Assembly (NCBI RefSeq): GCF_018135625.1
Contig: NZ_CP073078.1
Coordinates: 1,954,501-2,018,500 of the forward strand
Reading direction: 5' to 3'
From: Phenylobacterium montanum
GTDB lineage: Bacteria; Pseudomonadota; Alphaproteobacteria; Caulobacterales; Caulobacteraceae
Length of the DNA stretch: 64,000 nucleotides
The notes under the pieces were generated by a model that was given only the letters and a program-made list of their open reading frames with translations, did not search any database and had not been told where the DNA came from. Positions 4,607 through 13,696 of the stretch are shown here, one piece after another. Both the position numbers and the translations under genes were made by a program. Position 1 is the stretch's first letter, and every line of letters starts with the position of its first letter.

Positions 4607-5377
4607 ATGCGCATCGCCGTGATCATCCAGGCCCGCATGGGCTCGACCCGCCTGCCGGGCAAGGTCCTGATGGACCTCGGCGGGCGCACGGTGCTGGCCC
4701 GCGTGCTGGAGCGGGCCAAGGCCATCCCCGGCGCCGATGTGGTGGTCTGCGCCATTCCCGAGGGCCCAGACGACGATCCCGTGGCCGAGGAGGCCGCTCG
4801 CGCCGGCGCCGTGGTCACCCGCGGCTCGCGCGACGACGTGCTGGACCGCTACTGGCGCGCGGCCCAGGCGGTCAAGGCGGACGCGGTCATGCGCGTCACC
4901 AGCGACTGCCCGCTGATCGACCCCAAGGTCTGCGGCGACCTGATCGCCCTCTTCCAGCGATCCGGCGCCGACTATGCCTGCATCAACGACCCGGCGAGCT
5001 GGCCGCACGGGCTGGAGTGCGAGATCTTCTCCTTTGCCTGGCTGGACAAGGCCGCACGCGAGGCGAAGAAGCCGTCCGAGCGCGAGCACGTCTCGCCCTT
5101 CATCCGCACCCACCCGGACGCGCGGCGGGTCAACATGCTAGGGCCTGGCCCCGAGACCGTCCGCCACCGCTGGACCCTGGACCATGCGGACGATCTTACT
5201 TTCTTACGCGCCCTCTGGGCCCGCCTGCCCGAGGGACGGGCGGCCTGGGACTGGCATGTCGCCTTCGCCATCGTCGAGGCCGACCCGGCCCTGGCCGCCA
5301 TCAACGCCGGCCACGACCGGCTCGAGGGCCTGAACAAGTCCCTGGCCCAGGACGCCCGCGAGGGGTTCGCCCGATGA
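4607..5377 (+). CDS. pseF: Cytidylyltransferase-family protein, probable pseudaminic acid CMP-activating enzyme (PseF-like)
   Basis: A 256-residue nucleotidyltransferase of the SpsF/NeuA-like family with the N-terminal nucleotide-binding signature IIQARMGSTRLPGKV and the later motif VTSDCPLIDP. In the pseudaminic acid pathway PseF activates the finished nonulosonic acid with CTP. The downstream genes encode PseH-, PseI- and PseG-like enzymes, and this corresponds to the flmC type of gene in Caulobacter. Flagellin glycosylation is the likely purpose, as in Caulobacter. A closely related cytidylyltransferase for another sugar cannot be excluded from sequence alone. Its stop overlaps the start of the acetyltransferase gene (ATGA). 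Confidence 0.75.
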   Translation: MRIAVIIQARMGSTRLPGKVLMDLGGRTVLARVLERAKAIPGADVVVCAIPEGPDDDPVAEEAARAGAVVTRGSRDDVLDRYWRAAQAVKADAVMRVTSDCPLIDPKVCGDLIALFQRSGADYACINDPASWPHGLECEIFSFAWLDKAAREAKKPSEREHVSPFIRTHPDARRVNMLGPGPETVRHRWTLDHADDLTFLRALWARLPEGRAAWDWHVAFAIVEADPALAAINAGHDRLEGLNKSLAQDAREGFAR

Positions 5378-5961
5378 GCGTCACGCTGCGCCCCGTCACC
5401 GCCGCCGACAGCGACCGCCTGCTGGCCTGGCGCAACAGCCCAGCCGTCTCGGCCTATATGTATACCGACCATCTGATCGGCCCCGAGGAGCACGCCCGCT
5501 GGCTGGCCGGCGCCCTGACGGCCTCCGACCGCCGCTACTGGATCATCGAGGACGATGGCGCGCCGGTGGGCTTGGCCAATCTGGTCAATATCGACCTGAC
5601 GCGCCGCCGCTGCGAATGGGCCTACTACCTGGGCGAAGCCAGCGTGCGCGGGCGCGGCGTCGGGGCGGCGGTGGAGCTTCTGGTCCTCGACTACGTTTTC
5701 GGGACGCTGAAACTGAACAAGCTCTGGTGCGAAGTGCTGCTGGAAAACGAGGGCGTGTGGAAGCTGCACCAGTCGTTCGGCTTCGAGCGCGAAGCCCTCT
5801 ATCGCCAGCACGTTTTCAAGGCCGGCCGCTTCCAGGATGTGGTCGGCCTGGGCCTTCTGGCCGCCGACTGGGAAAAGGCGCGCCCCGCCTGCGCCGAGCG
5901 CCTGGCGCAGAAGGGCTATGGCCCATCCGAACTGACCCTGATCGCCGAGGAACGCGGATGA
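5374..5961 (+). CDS. pseH: GNAT N-acetyltransferase of pseudaminic acid synthesis (PseH-like)
   Basis: A 195-residue GNAT acetyltransferase. It opens with the family-typical LRPVTAADSDRLLAWRNSP and has the acetyl-CoA binding loop RGRGVGAAVELLVLDYVF at about 90, followed by WCEVLLENEGVWKLHQSFGF. PseH acetylates the 4-amino group of the UDP-altrose intermediate. The ATG at 5374 overlaps the preceding stop by four bases, and its own stop overlaps the start of pseI in the same way, so the three genes are translationally coupled. Confidence 0.8.
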   Translation: MSVTLRPVTAADSDRLLAWRNSPAVSAYMYTDHLIGPEEHARWLAGALTASDRRYWIIEDDGAPVGLANLVNIDLTRRRCEWAYYLGEASVRGRGVGAAVELLVLDYVFGTLKLNKLWCEVLLENEGVWKLHQSFGFEREALYRQHVFKAGRFQDVVGLGLLAADWEKARPACAERLAQKGYGPSELTLIAEERG

Positions 5962-7007
5962 GCCGCCCCTTCGCCATAGCCGGCCGCGCCATCGGCCCCG
6001 ACCAGCCGCCCTATGTGATCGCCGAGATGAGCGGCAACCACAATGGCGACATCGACCGCGCGCTGGCGTTGATCGAGGCCGCCGCCGAGGCCGGCGCCGA
6101 TGCGGTCAAGCTGCAGACCTACACCGCCGACACCATCACCATCGACCATGACGGTCCGGGCTTCGTCATTCAGGGCGGCCTGTGGGAAGGGCGGCGGCTT
6201 TACGAGCTCTACGAGGAAGCCCACACCCCCTGGGACTGGCACCCGCGCCTGTTCGAGCGCGCGGCGAAACTCGGCATCACCGCCTTCTCCTCGCCCTTCG
6301 ACCCCACCGCGGTGAAGTTCCTCGACGAGCTCGGCGCCCCGGCCTTCAAGGTCGCCTCCTTCGAGTTGGTGGACACGCCCCTGATCGCCTGCATGGCGCA
6401 GACCGGCAAACCCCTGATCATGTCCACGGGCCTGGCCTCGCCCGAGGACATCGCCGAGGCGGTCGGCGCCGCGCGCTTCGCCGGCGCCCAGGACCTCGTG
6501 CTGCTGCACTGCACCAGCGGCTATCCGACCCCCGCGTCGCAGATGCATCTCAGAACCATGGCCGACCTCGGGACCCGCTACGGGACCCTGGTGGGCCTCT
6601 CGGACCACAGCATGGGCACGGCGGTCTCGGTGGCGGCCGTCGCCCTGGGCGCCTGCGTGATCGAAAAGCACTTCACCCTGGCCCGAGCCGACGGCGGCCC
6701 CGACAGCGCCTTCTCGCTGGAGCCGGACGAACTGGCCCGCCTGGTCAGGGACTGCCGCGACGCCTGGGAGGCCCTGGGCGGCGTGCACTACGAAGAGGTC
6801 GAGGCGGAAAAGGCCAGCCGCGAACATCGCCGCTCGCTCTATGTCGTCGCCGACGTGGCCGCGGGCGAGGTGCTGACCGAGGCCCACGTGAGGTCGATCC
6901 GGCCCGGCCACGGCCTGGCGCCGAAACATCTGTACGACGTGCTCGGCAAACCGGCCGCACGGGACCTGAAGCGCGGCGAGCCGCTCGCTTGGGAGATGGT
7001 GGGGTAG
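5958..7007 (+). CDS. pseI: Pseudaminic acid synthase (NeuB/PseI family)
   Basis: A 349-residue NeuB-family synthase, which condenses a 6-deoxy-diacetamido sugar with phosphoenolpyruvate to give a nonulosonic acid. The TIM-barrel part carries IAEMSGNHNGDIDRALALI, DAVKLQTY, FSSPFDPTAV, STGLASPEDI, LLHCTSGYPTP and GLSDHSMG. The C-terminal ~60 residues are the antifreeze-like SAF domain (RRSLYVVADVAAGEVLTEAHV). AEMSGNHNG is typical of PseI rather than sialic acid synthases, from memory of the families. It is the last gene of the plus-strand pse unit and ends three bases from the convergent pseG. Confidence 0.85.
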   Translation: MSRPFAIAGRAIGPDQPPYVIAEMSGNHNGDIDRALALIEAAAEAGADAVKLQTYTADTITIDHDGPGFVIQGGLWEGRRLYELYEEAHTPWDWHPRLFERAAKLGITAFSSPFDPTAVKFLDELGAPAFKVASFELVDTPLIACMAQTGKPLIMSTGLASPEDIAEAVGAARFAGAQDLVLLHCTSGYPTPASQMHLRTMADLGTRYGTLVGLSDHSMGTAVSVAAVALGACVIEKHFTLARADGGPDSAFSLEPDELARLVRDCRDAWEALGGVHYEEVEAEKASREHRRSLYVVADVAAGEVLTEAHVRSIRPGHGLAPKHLYDVLGKPAARDLKRGEPLAWEMVG

Positions 7008-7010
7008 GCC

Positions 7011-8042
7011 CTACCGCCCGCCCAGCATCTTCGCCGCCACCTTCTCCGCCCCCGTACCATCGCACAGCAGGGCCGCGTGGAAGCTCAGCTCGGTCAGGCG
7101 CTTGGCGTCGCTGCACAGGGCCTTGAACACCGAGGCCAGCCGCGAATCGAACAGGGGGTCGGCGGCGTCCAGGGCGACGGTGGCGCCGGCGGCCTCCATG
7201 GCCTGGGCGTTGGCGCGCTGATTTTCGGCCAGGATCGCGGTGATCGAGGGCAGGCCCAGGCAGCAGCGCTCCCAGGTCGAGGAACCGCCCGCCCCCACCG
7301 CCAGGTCCGCCGCGGCGGTCAGGGCCGACATGGCGCGGGTGTCCACGTGCACCTCCAGCCGCCGGTCGGCCTCGGCCAGCTTCAGCACCCTGTCCAGCCC
7401 CGCAGCGCTTCCACCCAGCACCACATCGACCTGGCGCTCGCCGAGCACCGGCTGGATCGCCTCAAGCACCCGCGCCGTGATCCCGTCCACATCGGTCAGA
7501 CCCATGGCCACCAGGACCCGGGAGACATCAGGCTGGCTGGCCCGCCGCATCAGCGAGACGTCGCGCAGGTCGCGAAAGGCGGGGCGGATCAGGGTGTAGT
7601 CTGGGCCGGCCAGCACCACCGCGCCCGGATAGTCCTCTCCAGACCGCCCAAGGTTTGAATCCAGCACCAGATCGGCATCGTGGGGCCGCTTGAGATCGTC
7701 CATGGCCAATAGGCGCCCCGCCAGCCCTCGCAGCCGCGCCTCCTGCCCGGCGGCGAGCCCATAGTGGTCGACCACCACCCAGGAGGCGTCCCAGTCGGCT
7801 ATGGCCAAGAGGCCATCCCGCGTCAGCGTCTCGGCCTCCTCGCCCGTGCCGCGCAGGCGCTCGATCTCCGGCCCGGCGAAGGCGGCCAGGAACGGCGACA
7901 CCTCGGGGCTGGCGACAAAGGCGCAGGACGCCCCGCGCTGCTTCAGCGCCCCAGCCAGAGTCAGGCAGCGCATGACGTGGCCGCCGCCCACGCTGGGGCC
8001 GGCGTTGCACAGGAACAGGACGCGCTGGGGGGTGGAGGTCAT
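7011..8042 (-). CDS. pseG: UDP-2,4-diacetamido-2,4,6-trideoxy-beta-L-altropyranose hydrolase (PseG-like)
   Basis: A 343-residue GT-B-like hydrolase that removes UDP from the diacetamido-altrose intermediate before PseI acts. The N-terminal GGGHVMRCLTLA motif holds the catalytic His22. The C-terminal half has the UDP-binding AVGAGGSSTWERCCLGLPSI. It lies on the strand opposite the other pse genes and converges on pseI, so it must have its own promoter. With pseF, pseH and pseI here, only the first two steps (PseB dehydratase and PseC aminotransferase) are missing from the window. Confidence 0.8.
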   Translation of the reverse strand: MTSTPQRVLFLCNAGPSVGGGHVMRCLTLAGALKQRGASCAFVASPEVSPFLAAFAGPEIERLRGTGEEAETLTRDGLLAIADWDASWVVVDHYGLAAGQEARLRGLAGRLLAMDDLKRPHDADLVLDSNLGRSGEDYPGAVVLAGPDYTLIRPAFRDLRDVSLMRRASQPDVSRVLVAMGLTDVDGITARVLEAIQPVLGERQVDVVLGGSAAGLDRVLKLAEADRRLEVHVDTRAMSALTAAADLAVGAGGSSTWERCCLGLPSITAILAENQRANAQAMEAAGATVALDAADPLFDSRLASVFKALCSDAKRLTELSFHAALLCDGTGAEKVAAKMLGGR

Positions 8043-8158: not shown

Positions 8159-9163
8159 ATGTCCGTCACGCCTCGCAACGTCCGCTGCGCCATCATCGGG
8201 TCCGGTCCCGCCGGCTACACCGCCGCCATCTACGCCGCCCGCGCCATGCTGGAGCCGGTCTTGATCGCGGGCATCCAGCCGGGCGGGCAACTGACCATCA
8301 CCACCGATGTCGAGAACTATCCCGGCTTTTCCGACGTGATCCAAGGCCCCTGGCTGATGGACCAGATGAAGGCCCAGGCCGAGCACGTGGGGACCGAGTT
8401 CGTCGCCGACATCGTGCTGAAAGCGGATCTGTCGACCCGTCCGTTCCGCCTGGAGTGCGACAGCGGCGCGGTGTTTCTGGCCGAGACCCTGATCATCGCC
8501 ACCGGCGCCCAGGCCAAGTGGCTGGGCCTGCCCACCGAGCAGACCTTCCAGGGCTTCGGCGTCTCGGCCTGCGCCACCTGCGACGGCTTCTTCTATCGGG
8601 GCAAGAACGTAGTCGTCGTTGGTGGCGGCAACACTGCGGTCGAGGAGGCGCTGTTCCTGACCAACTTCGCCGCCAAGGTGACGGTGGTGCACCGCCGCGA
8701 CGAGTTCCGCGCCGAGCGCATCCTGCAGCAACGCCTGTTCGCCCATCCGAAGATCGAGGTGGTGTGGGACAGCGCCATCGACGAGATCCTGGGGACCAAG
8801 GAGCCCCTGGGCGTCACCGGCGTCCGCCTGAAGAACGTGGGCACCGGCGCCCTCAGCGAGATCGCCTGCGACGGGGTGTTCGTCGCCATCGGCCACGCCC
8901 CCTCCTCCGAGCTGTTCGCTGGCCAGCTGGAGACCAACGCCGGCGGCTATCTGAAAGTGGTTCCGGGCACGGCGGCGACCGCCATCCCCGGCGTCTGGGC
9001 CGCGGGCGACGTCACCGACGACGTCTATCGACAGGCGGTGACCGCCGCCGGCATGGGCTGCATGGCCGCGCTGGAGGCCGTGCGCTTCCTGGCCGAAGAG
9101 GACCACAAGAAGGCCCACCACCCGATCAGCCACCAGGAAGCCCAGGAAATCGGAACCTGGTAA
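8159..9163 (+). CDS. trxB: Thioredoxin-disulfide reductase
   Basis: A 334-residue low-molecular-weight thioredoxin reductase. It has the N-terminal FAD Rossmann motif IIGSGPAGYTAAIYAAR, the redox disulfide Cys138-Ala-Thr-Cys141, the NADPH-binding VVVVGGGNTAVEEAL and the C-terminal FAD motif GVWAAGDVTDDVYRQAVTAAGMG. It reduces thioredoxin with NADPH in the cytosol. The ATG at 8159 is chosen because family similarity begins right there; the in-frame extension back to 8042 does not fit. A small hairpin at 9233-9249 may end the transcript. Confidence 0.93.
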   Translation: MSVTPRNVRCAIIGSGPAGYTAAIYAARAMLEPVLIAGIQPGGQLTITTDVENYPGFSDVIQGPWLMDQMKAQAEHVGTEFVADIVLKADLSTRPFRLECDSGAVFLAETLIIATGAQAKWLGLPTEQTFQGFGVSACATCDGFFYRGKNVVVVGGGNTAVEEALFLTNFAAKVTVVHRRDEFRAERILQQRLFAHPKIEVVWDSAIDEILGTKEPLGVTGVRLKNVGTGALSEIACDGVFVAIGHAPSSELFAGQLETNAGGYLKVVPGTAATAIPGVWAAGDVTDDVYRQAVTAAGMGCMAALEAVRFLAEEDHKKAHHPISHQEAQEIGTW

Positions 9164-9232
9164 GAGATTGCGAGGCCTGAGCCGCTGTCGCTATCAAGTG
9201 AACTGCAGGCCCCGCAAAAAATCGTGATGCCC

Positions 9233-9249
9233 GGCGACGCTGCGTCGCC
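9233..9249 (+). terminator. Short hairpin downstream of trxB
   Basis: A perfect 7-bp stem (9233-9239 with 9243-9249) with a 3-base loop, 70 bases past the trxB stop, followed by a short pyrimidine stretch. It may end the trxB transcript before the nad operon promoter. The evidence is only the fold and position. Confidence 0.35.
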
Positions 9250-9286
9250 CCTTCCAATCCCTTTCCATCCGGACTATATGTCTTGC

Positions 9287-9313
9287 ACCTTATGCTCAAA
9301 CCTAGCATAAGGT
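9287..9313. promoter_or_regulatory. Distal palindromic operator candidate upstream of nadA
   Basis: A perfect inverted repeat: ACCTTATGCT, 7 bases, AGCATAAGGT. Its core is ATGCT-N7-AGCAT. The same core spacing recurs at 9365-9381, with the two centres 73 bases apart. A TTGCAC hexamer at 9284-9289 followed 17 bases later by ATAAGG could be the promoter that this site would occlude. From memory, the sequence resembles motifs proposed for the alphaproteobacterial NAD repressor NadQ; this could not be checked here. Confidence 0.7.
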
Positions 9314-9364
9314 GAGGAACGCCGATGACCCTCGAGGGGCGCGGCGTTTTTACGGGACCCCGAA

Positions 9365-9381
9365 ATGCTCAATTTGAGCAT
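9365..9381. promoter_or_regulatory. Proximal palindromic operator candidate abutting the nadA ribosome binding site
   Basis: A perfect palindrome: ATGCTCAA, one base, TTGAGCAT. It has the ATGCT-N7-AGCAT core seen at 9287-9313. Position 9374-9385 is an exact reverse complement of the 12 bases at 9288-9299. It ends one base before the AAGGAGGA Shine-Dalgarno of nadA, so bound protein here would block transcription elongation or act with the upstream site. Confidence 0.7.
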
Positions 9382-9393
9382 AAGGAGGACGGC

Positions 9394-10479
9394 ATGGCGG
9401 ACGGATTTGCGGCCCTGGGCTTCACCCCCGAGATTGAGCGGGCGACCCTGCCTATCTGGGAAAAGGTCAAGAGCCGCGTCACCCCGCTGGAATGGCGGCT
9501 TCAGGCGCCCCTGATCGCTTCGATCAACGAGCTGAAAAAGCAGAAGAACGCGGTGATCCTGGCGCACAACTACATGACGCCGGAGATCTTCCACGGGGTC
9601 GGCGACTTCGTCGGCGACAGCCTGGGCCTGGCCCGCGAGGCGGCCAAGTGCGACGCCAAGATCATCGTCCAGGCCGGCGTGCACTTCATGGCCGAGACCT
9701 CCAAGGTGCTGTGCCCCGACAAGACCGTGCTGATCCCGGACCTGATGGCGGGCTGCTCGCTGGCCTCCTCGATCACCGGCGCCGACGTGCGCCTGATCAA
9801 GCAGCGCTATCCGGGCCTGCCGGTCGTGACCTACGTCAACACCACCGCCGACGTGAAGGCCGAGACCGACATCTGCTGCACCAGCGCCAACGCCGTGCAG
9901 GTCGTGGAGCACATCGCCCGCGAGTGGGGCGTGGACCGGGTGATCCTGATCCCCGACGAGTTCCTCGCCCGCAACGTCGCCCGCCAGACCGAGGTCGGTA
10001 TCATCGCCTGGAAGGGCCGCTGCGAGGTGCATGAGCGCTTCGACCGCAACGACATCATCGAGCTGCGCGCCGCCTATCCGGGCGCCGAGATCCTAGCCCA
10101 CCCCGAATGCCCCACCGAGGTCCTGGAAGAGGCCGACTTCGCCGGCTCGACCGCAGCGATGAACGACTATGTGATCCAGAGAAAGCCGCGCCAGGTGGTG
10201 CTGATCACCGAATGCTCCATGGCCGACAACGTCGCGTGCGACGCGCCTGAGACCGAATTCGTGCGCCCCTGCAACCTCTGCCCGCACATGAAGCGGATCA
10301 GCCTGGAGAACATCCACGACGCCCTGCTCTACGACCGCTTCGTGGTCGAGATCGACCCCGCCGTGGCCGAGCGCGCGCGCCTGGCGGTGCAGCGGATGAT
10401 CGACATGCCCCCGCCGGCGGTCCCGGCCCGCTATGACCTGGTCAAGGCGCGCCACCACGTCGACGTCGAGCTGATCTAG
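9394..10479 (+). CDS. nadA: Quinolinate synthase A
   Basis: A 361-residue [4Fe-4S] enzyme that condenses iminoaspartate (from NadB) with dihydroxyacetone phosphate to give quinolinate. Family motifs include ILAHNYMTPEIFHGVGDFVGDS, LIPDLMAGCSLASS, VTYVNTTADVKAETD and the C-terminal cysteine motif CNLCPHMKRISLENI. The ATG at 9394 is preferred over the in-frame ATG at 9325: AAGGAGGA sits directly before it, and the earlier start would place the palindromic operator inside the coding region. It leads the nadA-protease-nadB-nadC operon. Confidence 0.95.
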   Translation: MADGFAALGFTPEIERATLPIWEKVKSRVTPLEWRLQAPLIASINELKKQKNAVILAHNYMTPEIFHGVGDFVGDSLGLAREAAKCDAKIIVQAGVHFMAETSKVLCPDKTVLIPDLMAGCSLASSITGADVRLIKQRYPGLPVVTYVNTTADVKAETDICCTSANAVQVVEHIAREWGVDRVILIPDEFLARNVARQTEVGIIAWKGRCEVHERFDRNDIIELRAAYPGAEILAHPECPTEVLEEADFAGSTAAMNDYVIQRKPRQVVLITECSMADNVACDAPETEFVRPCNLCPHMKRISLENIHDALLYDRFVVEIDPAVAERARLAVQRMIDMPPPAVPARYDLVKARHHVDVELI

Positions 10480-10489
10480 GCCCATCCCC

Positions 10490-11299
10490 GTGTCCGCCCC
10501 GGACCCCACAGCGCCCTCCGCCTCGGATGTCGAGCGGCTCGGCCCATGGGGGGCGCTGGCCGCCGATGCGGAGTCCACGCCCTCGCCGGACCCGGCCCCG
10601 GCCCCACAGTCGCCGCGGTCGCTGGCGTCAGAGCTGGGCTGGGGCCTGGTCTCGACCGCGGCCCTGGCCTTATTCCTGGGGCTGCAATGGGGCTGGGTGA
10701 GGGCCGCCGCCGGTGTGCTGGGCGTGTTTGTGCACGAGTTCGGCCACCTCGCGGCGATCAACGGCCTGGGTTGCGGGCCGGGCCGTATCCAGATCATTCC
10801 CTTCTTCGGCGGGGCGGCCAGCATGCGCCGCGCCCCGGACACCGAGTTCAAGAGCGTGCTGATCGCCCTCGCCGGGCCGATCGCCGGCCTTGCCGCCGCC
10901 ATCCCCTTCTGGGGCCTCTATGTCGTGACCCGCGACGCCCGCTGGCTGCAAGGCGTGGTGTTCATCGGCGGCCTGAACCTGCTGAATCTTCTGCCGGCGC
11001 CGCCGCTCGATGGGGCCAAGGCTCTGGGGCCGGCCCTGGCCTGGATCCATCCCACCGTCGAGCGCGGGGCGATGATGTTCCTGGGCGGCATCGGTGTCTA
11101 TCTGGCGGTGCGCTTCGGCCAACCCCTGATCGCCGCCTTCGTTGGTATCGGCGCCGCCCAGGCGGTGCTGGGCCGCGTCCCGCGGGCGCCGGCCAAGCGG
11201 ATGAGCATCCTGCAGTGGCTTGCGGCCCTCGTCCTGTGGGCAGGCGCCTTCGTCCTCTGCGCGACGGTCACCTACGCCGCCTGGCCGCGGCAAGCTTGA
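10490..11299 (+). CDS. M50/site-2-type membrane metalloprotease
   Basis: A 269-residue protein starting at GTG 10490, ten bases after nadA. After a Pro/Ala-rich N-terminal tail of about 55 residues come several membrane segments. The first zinc motif HEFGH is at residues 82-86 within a hydrophobic segment. The second motif is NLLPAPPLDGAKAL, matching the NxxPxPxxDG pattern of intramembrane zinc proteases. No PDZ domain is present. Site-2 proteases cut membrane-anchored anti-sigma factors or signal-peptide remnants; the substrate here is unknown. Its place between nadA and nadB is unusual and implies cotranscription with NAD synthesis. Confidence 0.8.
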   Translation: MSAPDPTAPSASDVERLGPWGALAADAESTPSPDPAPAPQSPRSLASELGWGLVSTAALALFLGLQWGWVRAAAGVLGVFVHEFGHLAAINGLGCGPGRIQIIPFFGGAASMRRAPDTEFKSVLIALAGPIAGLAAAIPFWGLYVVTRDARWLQGVVFIGGLNLLNLLPAPPLDGAKALGPALAWIHPTVERGAMMFLGGIGVYLAVRFGQPLIAAFVGIGAAQAVLGRVPRAPAKRMSILQWLAALVLWAGAFVLCATVTYAAWPRQA

Positions 11300-11314: not shown

Positions 11315-12832
11315 TTGGTTGAGCATGAGACTTTCGATGGCGTGCTGATCGTGGGCGCGGGCCTGGCCGGCCTCTCCGCCGCCCTGGCCGCCGCCCCACG
11401 CAAGGCCCTGGTCCTGAGCGCGGCGCCGCTGCTGCAAGGCTGTTCTTCGGCCTGGGCCCAGGGCGGCATGGCCGCGGCCCTCAGCGCAGACGACGCGCCG
11501 GACCTGCACGCCGCCGACACCGTCGCCGCCGGCGCTGGCCTGGTCGACCCGGCCGTGGCCGAACTCCTGACCCGCGAAGGTCCCGCCGCCGTCCGCCGCC
11601 TGGCCGAATACGGCGCGCCCTTCGACCGCGACGCGGAGGGCCGCTTCGCCCAGAGCCTCGAGGCCGCCCACAGCCGCCCGCGCGTGGCCCGGGTCAAGGG
11701 AGACCAGGCCGGCCGGGCGATCATGGAGGCGGTCTGCGCCAAGGCCCTGGCGGAGCCGCACATCGAGGTCCGGCCCGAGGCCCGGGTCCGAGCCCTCCTG
11801 ACCGACGCCGAGGGTCGGGTGCGCGGCGTGCTGGCCGAAGTCGGCGGACGCCTGATCCAGATCACCGCGTCGGCGACCGTCCTCGCCACCGGCGGCCTTG
11901 GCGGCCTCTACGCCGTCACCACCAATCCGGTCGCGGTGCGCGGCGAGGGCCTGGCCCTGGCGGCCCTGGCCGGGGCGCAGATCGCCGACCCCGAGTTCGT
12001 CCAGTTCCATCCCACAGCCATCGCCATCCACGCCGACCCCGCTCCGCTGGCGACCGAGGCCCTGCGCGGCGAGGGCGCTGTGCTGGTCGACGCCGAGGGC
12101 CGGCCGTTCATGGCCGCCTATCACCCCATGGCCGACCTCGCTCCGCGCGACGTGGTCGCCCGCGCCATCCATCGCCAGATCGCCGAAGACAAGGGCGCCT
12201 TCCTCGACGCCCGCCAGGCCATCGGCGCTCACTTCCCCGACGAATTCCCGGCCGTTTTCGCCGCCTGCATGGGCGGCGGCATCGACCCACGCGAACAGCC
12301 GATCCCGGTGGCCCCCGCCGTGCACTATCACATGGGCGGGGTGGTCACCGACACAGCAGGCCGCACCAGCCTGGAAGGCCTGTACGCCGCAGGCGAATGC
12401 GCCTCGACCGGGGTGCATGGCGCCAACCGCCTCGCCTCCAACTCGCTCTTGGAAGCGGCCGTATTCGGGACCCGCGCCGGCCAGGCCGCGCGTGAGGTCG
12501 CGGGGCCGCGCACCAGCCCGCTCGCCGCCCGACCTGCCCCCGACCTGCCGCCCATGGCCCTGCGCCGCCTGCGCGAAGCCATGAGCCGCGACGCCGGGGT
12601 GGTGCGCGACGCAGAAGGCCTCGGCGGGCTGATCGGCCTGATCGACGATCTGGAAAGCCGCCATGGCGCGGCCTTGCCCCTGGTCACCGCGCGCCTGGTG
12701 GCCGAGCAGGCCCTGGCCCGCCAGGAAAGCCGCGGCGCCCACTTCCGCGCCGATTTCCCCAACGCCGCGGCCGAACCCCGCCGCACCTTCCTGACCCTCG
12801 CCTCCGGCTCGGCCGCGGGCGAGGCCGCCTGA
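11315..12832 (+). CDS. nadB: L-aspartate oxidase
   Basis: A 505-residue flavoprotein of the succinate dehydrogenase/fumarate reductase flavoprotein family that oxidises L-aspartate to iminoaspartate. Visible motifs are LIVGAGLAGLSAALAA (FAD), SSAWAQGGMAAA, the substrate region EFVQFHPTAI, YHMGGVVTD and AAGECASTGVHGANRLASNSLLE. The start is a TTG at 11315 preceded by a GGAG; no in-frame ATG occurs before the FAD motif. It begins 15 bases after the protease gene, and nadC follows 18 bases later. Confidence 0.92.
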   Translation: MVEHETFDGVLIVGAGLAGLSAALAAAPRKALVLSAAPLLQGCSSAWAQGGMAAALSADDAPDLHAADTVAAGAGLVDPAVAELLTREGPAAVRRLAEYGAPFDRDAEGRFAQSLEAAHSRPRVARVKGDQAGRAIMEAVCAKALAEPHIEVRPEARVRALLTDAEGRVRGVLAEVGGRLIQITASATVLATGGLGGLYAVTTNPVAVRGEGLALAALAGAQIADPEFVQFHPTAIAIHADPAPLATEALRGEGAVLVDAEGRPFMAAYHPMADLAPRDVVARAIHRQIAEDKGAFLDARQAIGAHFPDEFPAVFAACMGGGIDPREQPIPVAPAVHYHMGGVVTDTAGRTSLEGLYAAGECASTGVHGANRLASNSLLEAAVFGTRAGQAAREVAGPRTSPLAARPAPDLPPMALRRLREAMSRDAGVVRDAEGLGGLIGLIDDLESRHGAALPLVTARLVAEQALARQESRGAHFRADFPNAAAEPRRTFLTLASGSAAGEAA

Positions 12833-12850: not shown

Positions 12851-13696
12851 ATGCTGTCTCCCCTGCCCGATCTCCTGATCGATCCTGTCGTACGCGCCGC
12901 CCTGACCGAGGACCTCGGTCGCGCCGGCGACGTCACCGCCCAGGCCTGCCTGCCCGAGGGCAAGCCGCTGATGGCCGCCTTCGCCGCGCGCAAGGAGGGC
13001 CGCGTCGCCGGCCTCGCCTGCGCCCGCCTGGCCGTGGCGGCGATGGATCCGGCCGCCCGCTTCGAGGTCCTGATCCCCGACGGCGCCGACGCCCCCGCCG
13101 GGGCCGAACTCGCCCGGATCAGCGGCGACGCCCGCGCCATCCTTTCGGCCGAGCGCGTAGCCCTGAACTTGATGGGCCGGCTCAGCGGGATCGCCACGCT
13201 TACCCGCGCCTATGTGCGCGCCGTCGAGGGGACCCGCGCCCGCATCGTCTGCACCCGCAAGACCACGCCGGGCTTGCGCGCCCTGGAGAAATACGCCGTG
13301 CGCTGCGGCGGCGGGGTGAACCACCGCTTCGGCCTGGATGACGCCATCCTGATCAAGGACAACCATGTCGCCGCATGCGGCGGGGTCGCCCAGGCCCTTG
13401 AGCGCGCCCGCGCCGCCGCCAGCCACCTGATGAAGATCGAGGTCGAGGTCGACAGCCTGGACCAACTGGACCAGGCCCTGCCCTTCCGCCCCGACGTGAT
13501 CATGCTGGACAATTTCAGCCTGGACGACCTGAAGGCCGCCGTCGCCCGCGTGGCCGGCGCCGTGCCCCTGGAGGCCTCCGGAGGGGTCAACCTGGAGACG
13601 GTCCGCGCCATCGCCGAGACCGGCGTCGACGCCATCTCGGTCGGCGCCCTGACCCACTCGGCCCCCGTGCTGGACATCGGCCTGGACGCGGTCTGA
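12851..13696 (+). CDS. nadC: Nicotinate-nucleotide diphosphorylase (carboxylating)
   Basis: A 281-residue quinolinate phosphoribosyltransferase, converting quinolinate and PRPP to nicotinate mononucleotide. Motifs include LTEDLGRAGDVTAQ, ERVALNLMGRLSGIAT, RIVCTRKTTPGLR, YAVRCGGGVNHRFGLDDAIL with the conserved IKDNH, IEVEVDSL and MLDNFS, and the phosphate-binding end ISVGALTHSAPVLDIGLD. It is the last gene of the nad operon. Its product NaMN is also the co-substrate of CobT enzymes, one divergent member of which lies 2 kb downstream. Confidence 0.95.
   Translation: MLSPLPDLLIDPVVRAALTEDLGRAGDVTAQACLPEGKPLMAAFAARKEGRVAGLACARLAVAAMDPAARFEVLIPDGADAPAGAELARISGDARAILSAERVALNLMGRLSGIATLTRAYVRAVEGTRARIVCTRKTTPGLRALEKYAVRCGGGVNHRFGLDDAILIKDNHVAACGGVAQALERARAAASHLMKIEVEVDSLDQLDQALPFRPDVIMLDNFSLDDLKAAVARVAGAVPLEASGGVNLETVRAIAETGVDAISVGALTHSAPVLDIGLDAV

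Follow-up and report, generated by a model that had tools for sequence, protein, structure and literature searches.

The window, a stretch of 64,000 nucleotides from Phenylobacterium montanum, carries a run of nad genes that are all read in the same direction:

9394-10479, + strand: nadA, quinolinate synthase (PF02445, E 2.7e-107)
10490-11299, + strand: M50 peptidase-like gene, between nadA and the nadB-like gene (PF02163, E 6.7e-10)
11315-12832, + strand: gene for a nadB-like flavoprotein, L-aspartate oxidase by its position between nadA and nadC (PF00890, E 5.5e-88)
12851-13696, + strand: nadC, quinolinate phosphoribosyltransferase (PF01729, E 1.1e-66)

The M50 peptidase-like gene has no apparent part in NAD synthesis. 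Upstream of the trxB-like gene that precedes nadA, positions 4607-8042 hold what we take, from the look of the translations (cytidylyltransferase-, acetyltransferase-, NeuB- and PseG-like), to be genes for a sugar of the sialic/legionaminic- or pseudaminic-acid type. No regulator gene is adjacent, as the original prediction held, the neighbours being the trxB-like gene, nadA, the M50 peptidase-like gene, the nadB-like gene and nadC. The leader in front of nadA contains the following features:

9251-9256, + strand: possible -35 hexamer CTTCCA, weak, 17 nt before the -10-like hexamer
9274-9279, + strand: -10-like hexamer CTATAT of the presumed nadA promoter, conserved before the distal operator
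9290-9310, no strand: predicted distal NadQ operator, conserved, TTATGCTCAAACCTAGCATAA
9318-9347, + strand: terminator-like hairpin, -16.0 kcal/mol, its stem with bulges
9347-9351, + strand: U-tract TTTTT, its first T 16 nt before the proximal 21-mer
9354-9361, no strand: conserved GG-N-CC stretch, GGGACCCC, offsets -9 to -3, with C at -5 in 88% of 52 upstreams
9363-9383, no strand: predicted proximal NadQ operator, AAATGCTCAATTTGAGCATAA
9382-9388, + strand: Shine-Dalgarno sequence AAGGAGG, overlapping the proximal operator

Both ATGCT-N7-AGCAT cores lie where they had been placed, at 9292-9308 and 9365-9381, with 73 bp from centre to centre, and the two sites are reverse-complementary to each other as claimed, over a length of 13 nt (CCTTATGCTCAAA / TTTGAGCATAAGG, read from the sequence) and not 12. 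The window holds these two cores and no others, against 0.01 expected from dinucleotide shuffles. The genome scan that had been proposed as a check returns eight cores in 5.65 Mb, the remaining six all within long open frames, and a reversed-pattern control returns none. The proximal site also meets the nadA ribosome-binding site, as had been noted, in that it runs into AAGGAGG at 9382-9388.

NadA would be 23 residues longer, and its reading frame would cross the hairpin and the proximal operator (9325-9393), if translation began at an in-frame ATG at 9325, which has a fair Shine-Dalgarno sequence (GGTGAGGA). This ATG is probably not a start, because the genus relatives G044 and G019 have no ATG there in the alignment, and gene callers may pick it as the nadA start.

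NadQ and its predicted operators

The motif is the published NadQ motif, given in the text of Leyn et al. (2016; PMC5343134) as ttATRCTCannntGAGYATaa. The distal operator has two mismatches to this consensus, and the two departures of its 17-mer from the core fall in the right half; the proximal operator is a perfect match to the 17-nt core, and its 21-mer has two mismatches, which are in the flank. Position 14 lacks its G in the distal operator of 41 of 52 two-site family upstreams and in the proximal operator of none (0/52).

NadQ had been put forward as a candidate regulator, and control was expected in trans. Both expectations are borne out: a search for a homologue finds one NadQ encoded in the genome, a protein of 325 aa at a contig position of about 5.29 Mb, which is approximately 3.3 Mb from nadA. 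This protein matches the solved NadQ chain PDB 7q91 (E 4.9e-76) and also PF21906, and its identity is firm. NrtR, the other candidate, which would combine a Nudix ADP-ribose domain with the WHD, was rejected, as the sole NrtR_WHD protein in the genome (searched up to E 10) is NadQ itself, and the NCBIfam NrtR-type model gives this protein 52 bits against a cut-off of 400. We regard the palindromes as almost certainly NadQ operators, with binding as predicted from their sequence, and on the same grounds this part of the locus is a member of the known NadQ regulon.

The association between regulator and operator is also seen beyond this genome. The winged-helix family occurs in 60 of the 60 genomes searched within the family. 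Among 40 nadA upstreams from other alphaproteobacterial families, an operator precedes nadA in 28 of 29 genomes with a NadQ-type winged helix and in 0 of 11 without one (Fisher p 5e-9, a value that ignores relatedness), NadQ presence being scored here by the NrtR_WHD profile, which is not specific to NadQ. This outside set represents the 40 most similar of 54 typed non-family nadA places, leaving out the 14 least similar and omitting two partial rows of genome G157. The one winged-helix genome of the 29 that has no close operator (G110, locus L220) contains palindromes of the form CTCG-N3-CGAG instead of CTCA-N3-TGAG, possibly a variant NadQ motif.

The targets of NadQ, as Leyn et al. describe them, are nadABC, with nadE and nadD in addition in Rhodobacterales and Caulobacterales (PMC5343134). 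A third, weaker site lies just before nadE in the present genome (3 mismatches to the 21-mer consensus), and sites with at most 3 mismatches within 250 nt are found at 8 of the 30 best nadE loci, this one included. For nadD, no site is found in the genome's own locus and no consistent one close upstream among the 30 best loci. Autoregulation of nadQ was considered and rejected, as 30 nadQ loci show no site with at most 3 mismatches apart from those that belong to nadA in L086 and L088. Three genomes of genus g11, in the same family, have a nadQ winged helix at 1.1-2.4 kb from nadA (G010, G027 and G040; loci L086, L088, L138, L139 and L141).

Alignment of nadA upstream regions, a further check that had been proposed, reveals that the sites are conserved in relatives, the named ones including Phenylobacterium, Caulobacter, Brevundimonas and Asticcacaulis. 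The family set comprises 60 upstreams from 59 genomes (G050 gives two, one of them limited by a contig end after 66 nt, and no nadA match was found in G041), and the named set, which is the best 80 of 575 loci, overlaps with it; the loci in these samples share descent and the sets overlap. Exactly two sites (at most 4 mismatches) are present in 52 of the 60 family upstreams, and one site in the other eight, including the contig-limited upstream of G050.

The 73 bp between the sites of this genome amount to 6.95 helical turns, which might suggest DNA looping or helically phased cooperative binding of sites seven turns apart, the reading favored by the original prediction. However, the distance drifts from 61 to 83 bp over the 52 two-site family upstreams, reaches 98 bp in named Caulobacteraceae (best 80 of 575) and 131 bp outside the family, and no helical phase at 10.5 bp is found in 38 genus-spacing values (Rayleigh R 0.15, p about 0.4). 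In addition, seven family genomes with the whole upstream available have a single site. The seven-turn phasing therefore does not hold up, and looping is extremely unlikely as the purpose of the paired sites. A different two-site design occurs in five other alphaproteobacterial nadA upstreams (L219, L221, L225, L230 and L231), where NadQ-type operators stand only 22-29 bp apart and no terminator lies between them.

Promoter and terminator-like element

Two features of the leader had been passed over, namely the -10-like sequence before the first site and the terminator-like hairpin between the sites. Of the 52 two-site family upstreams, 39 have a hexamer of the form YTANAW no more than 28 nt ahead of the distal operator (exactly CTATAT in 31/52), compared with 5% of shuffles, and 1 has it ahead of the proximal operator. 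This conservation suggests the position of the promoter, and a start approximately 7 nt past the -10 would put the distal operator at the transcription start. Many relatives show, by eye in the alignment, CTTGC or TTGCA at the place of the -35. A strict sigma70 scan of 9100-9500 did not find a promoter, and a stricter promoter search over the family (A2/T6 rule) found few, the YTANAW criterion being the looser one. In several outside loci the distal operator appears, again by eye, between TTGACA and TAGYAT, the latter being the right half of the operator.

A hairpin ending at a T-run between the operators is present in 47 of the 52 family upstreams, and a hairpin with T-run in 43 of 48 named loci with at least two sites (best 80 of 575) and in 11 of 17 such loci outside the family. 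A strict terminator scan of 9100-9500, which requires an unbroken stem, does not call the hairpin of the window. The start of the T-run lies 14.5 +/- 0.96 nt before the proximal operator in the 47 family upstreams (range 11-17), 13-17 nt before it in the named set (best 80 of 575) and 12-16 nt outside, with the histogram of this distance over relatives peaking at 15-16, whereas the spacing of the two operators in the same loci runs from 61 to 80, from 59 to 98 (best 80 of 575) and from 55 to 131 bp, respectively. When all T-runs up to 60 nt from the last operator are considered, those that start 13-17 nt before it number 57/67 in the family, 67/89 in the named set (best 80 of 575) and 19/38 outside.

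The folding energies point to the same place. Averaged by genus, hairpin energy is strongest, at -13.9 kcal/mol, in windows whose end falls 15 nt ahead of the proximal operator. At most other positions of the leader it is about 0 to -5 kcal/mol, with smaller maxima at -3 (-7.5) and at the palindrome of the operator itself (-8.3); across 34 outside and L315-L321 loci, the peak is -6.8 kcal/mol at -16. Hairpins whose arms are swapped between genera fold worse, the mean changing from -14.2 to -11.1 (outside, from -9.4 to -5.5), and 26% (family) and 19% (outside) of these chimeras fold as well as the native hairpin. Shuffled family spacers give a hairpin and T-run of -5 kcal/mol or better in 20% of cases, and the z-scores of the hairpin against shuffles are modest (means -1.2, -1.6 and -1.6).

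Outside the family, a T-run at 13-17 nt with a hairpin of -7 kcal/mol or lower is found in 15 of 28 site-bearing upstreams spanning 14 families, a count that includes one ambiguous locus, L224, which passes these thresholds and may have a promoter at this place instead (GATACT). In five loci no distal operator was seen within the limit of 4 mismatches, yet a hairpin and a T-run stand at the locked distance from a single operator, with a promoter-like stretch, seen by eye, ahead of the hairpin; these are L315 (a Parvularculaceae MAG), L320 (an unclassified alphaproteobacterial MAG), L321 (Aquisalinus flavus), L209 and L214. The geometry of hairpin, T-run and operator is strong, and a conserved terminator-like element locked to the proximal operator is very probable. 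The NadQ operators are known and the element is new; a literature search, which took in few subscription journals and did not extend to the NadQ structure paper, found no terminator tied to a NadQ site.

The possibility that the element simply serves as the terminator of trxB was rejected, as just 12 of the 110 loci searched in the family and named sets have trxB ahead of nadA (the sets overlap and include some stretches cut short, the named set being the best 80 of 575). For 12 of the 40 outside loci, the 560 nt analysed include part of nadQ, and there the element might be a nadQ terminator. The GG-N-CC stretch between the U-tract and the proximal operator may act as a pause element or may make the downstream DNA stiff.

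In the seven family genomes with one operator and the whole upstream, no hairpin with T-run was found between operator and start; because these genomes show neither the second operator nor the element, the two are absent together. The same score does arise 12-13 nt upstream of the only operator in single-site family genomes (G042, -10.9; G052, -6.3) and at 12-15 nt in single-site named loci among the best 80 of 575 (L289, -15.0; L294, -10.2; L301, -5.2; L303, -9.3; L308, -10.9; L310, -8.9). The T-rich TATTTT before the sole operator of Asticcacaulis-type loci (G014, G029, G042, G052 and named relatives) is probably a -10; these rows count in the T-run histograms, and part of them pass as hairpin with T-run. 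Because the score also arises at those presumed promoters, the criterion of hairpin plus T-run is not specific.

These loci bear on the idea that nadA has a second promoter, with a -10 at the left edge of the proximal operator or in the T-rich stretch itself, the hairpin then ending upstream transcription or being there by chance. In single-site Asticcacaulis-type loci the T-rich, -10-like stretch does stand at the same distance from the operator, and TTG, a 16-18 nt spacer and a TATAAT-like hexamer at the operator edge are found in 6 of 35 outside loci (L206, L207, L214, L315, L319 and L320) against 8% of shuffles. However, the operator edge in the window is CCGAAA, and the TTG/TATAAT-like test gives 0 of 52 two-site family upstreams, in which YTANAW stands before the distal operator and hardly ever before the proximal one (39/52 against 1/52). 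The T-run of these 52 upstreams also has neither the A nor the final T of a -10, and on this composition we reject it as a -10 there. A second promoter is thus distinctly unlikely.

A further idea is that the leader is an RNA attenuator or riboswitch, in which alternative folds of the transcript would govern the terminator and the palindromes would have a further role as RNA hairpins. The leader as a whole folds strongly (-49 kcal/mol, z -4.2), and there is the lesser hairpin peak at -3 to -5. However, transcription passes the T-run before the proximal palindrome, which therefore comes too late to influence the T-run as RNA, the palindromes track the presence of NadQ, and no Rfam match was found in 9150-9500 up to E 5. 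Control by RNA structure is accordingly very unlikely.

A possible role for NadQ in termination

Intrinsic termination requires a complex that is stalled on a U-rich hybrid while the hairpin forms behind it. The mechanism that we infer from the arrangement of the leader, and to which we assign a probability of just under one half, is that NadQ operators placed around the terminator-like element allow NadQ both to hinder initiation and to gate termination. NadQ at the distal operator, which would cover the promoter or the transcription start, would hinder initiation. Polymerases that initiate anyway, or that read in from upstream, would transcribe the hairpin, and at about the time when they reached the T-run their front would run into NadQ, bound to the proximal operator approximately 15 bp ahead. 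This roadblock would hold the elongation complex on the short U-tract and provide time for hairpin-driven release. With NadQ off its operators, polymerase would pass, and nadA, the M50-like gene, the nadB-like gene and nadC would be transcribed. The signal for release of NadQ may be ATP, as the title of Minazzato et al. (2022) calls NadQ ATP-responsive.

Bacterial RNA polymerase is described as halting 14 nt before an EcoRI-mutant roadblock (PMC5499547), from which a NadQ dimer on the proximal operator would be expected to meet a polymerase whose active centre is at or near the T-run. The gap from hairpin to operator is only 16 nt in the window, so that a halt 14-15 bp short of the operator would leave the polymerase at the very beginning of the U-tract, and release at the usual place would require an approach to about 8-9 nt.

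Alternatively, the two sites might be ordinary NadQ operators, one blocking the promoter and the other acting as a roadblock or cooperative helper at the ribosome-binding site, with a leaky, constitutive terminator that is not gated and that lowers nadA expression or insulates it. This would need no new mechanism, and repressors that act as roadblocks without a terminator are described in PMC10310618. Moreover, the hairpin with T-run is missing at loci with at least two operators, namely at 5 of 52 in the family (G010, G011, G040, G053 and G055), 5 of 48 in the named set, best 80 of 575 (L255, L257, L258, L268 and L319), and 6 of 17 outside (L205, L219, L221, L225, L230 and L231). However, ordinary operators leave unexplained why the distance from T-run to proximal operator stays constant despite the drifting spacing of the operators, and we consider this explanation rather unlikely. 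As to gating by NadQ, we would also suggest, still more tentatively, that a NadQ-gated intrinsic terminator is old and widespread in Alphaproteobacteria, in which NadQ, a metabolite-sensing repressor, would block the promoter and, as a roadblock at a set position, would also set off a weak terminator in the nadA leader.

Comparison with known systems

If true, gating by NadQ would join a repressor roadblock and an intrinsic terminator in one switch, with built-in clearance of polymerases stalled at the repressor, and attenuation would be decided by a DNA-bound protein downstream and not by RNA structure. It would account for the second NadQ site at the ribosome-binding site of many nadA genes, and the distance from operator to U-tract would be a searchable signature of similar switches.

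The locus agrees with the NadQ (COG4111) regulon of PMC5343134 in motif, in targets (nadABC, and nadE in Caulobacterales) and in regulator family, but there are also differences. The main text of that paper does not contain the string 'terminat', and the text available for it mentions no leader terminator, whereas a terminator-like element is present here; and it gives nadD as a target in Caulobacterales, whereas the nadD locus of this genome has no site.

The repressors PurR, GalR, ArsR, CcpA, CodY and LacI are similar to the proposed NadQ roadblock in that a DNA-bound repressor halts elongation (as described in PMC10310618 and PMC4132739). However, release of LacI-stalled polymerase is assigned mainly to Mfd (PMC4132739), and the text available for these two papers mentions no built-in terminator. 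YtgR in the trpRBA intergenic region of Chlamydia, as described in PMC6504234, comes close to the proposal in combining promoter block with termination of upstream transcripts, but it is another regulator in another pathway, and the text available for that paper mentions no hairpin and T-run tied to the operator.

A further likeness is to the terminators of RNA polymerase I (Reb1/Nsi1/TTF1), which in the account of PMC12366685 have a hairpin, a T-rich stretch and a sequence-specific DNA-bound protein approximately 15 bp downstream, the arrangement predicted here as well. In that account the native hairpin lies approximately 20 nt before the 3' end, farther than here, and backtracking is needed. 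Those terminators are eukaryotic and serve constitutive 3'-end formation (PMC12366685), whereas the present element stands in a bacterial 5' leader under a regulated repressor; if the proposal is true, it would be a regulated bacterial counterpart of the roadblock-plus-hairpin termination by RNA polymerase I.
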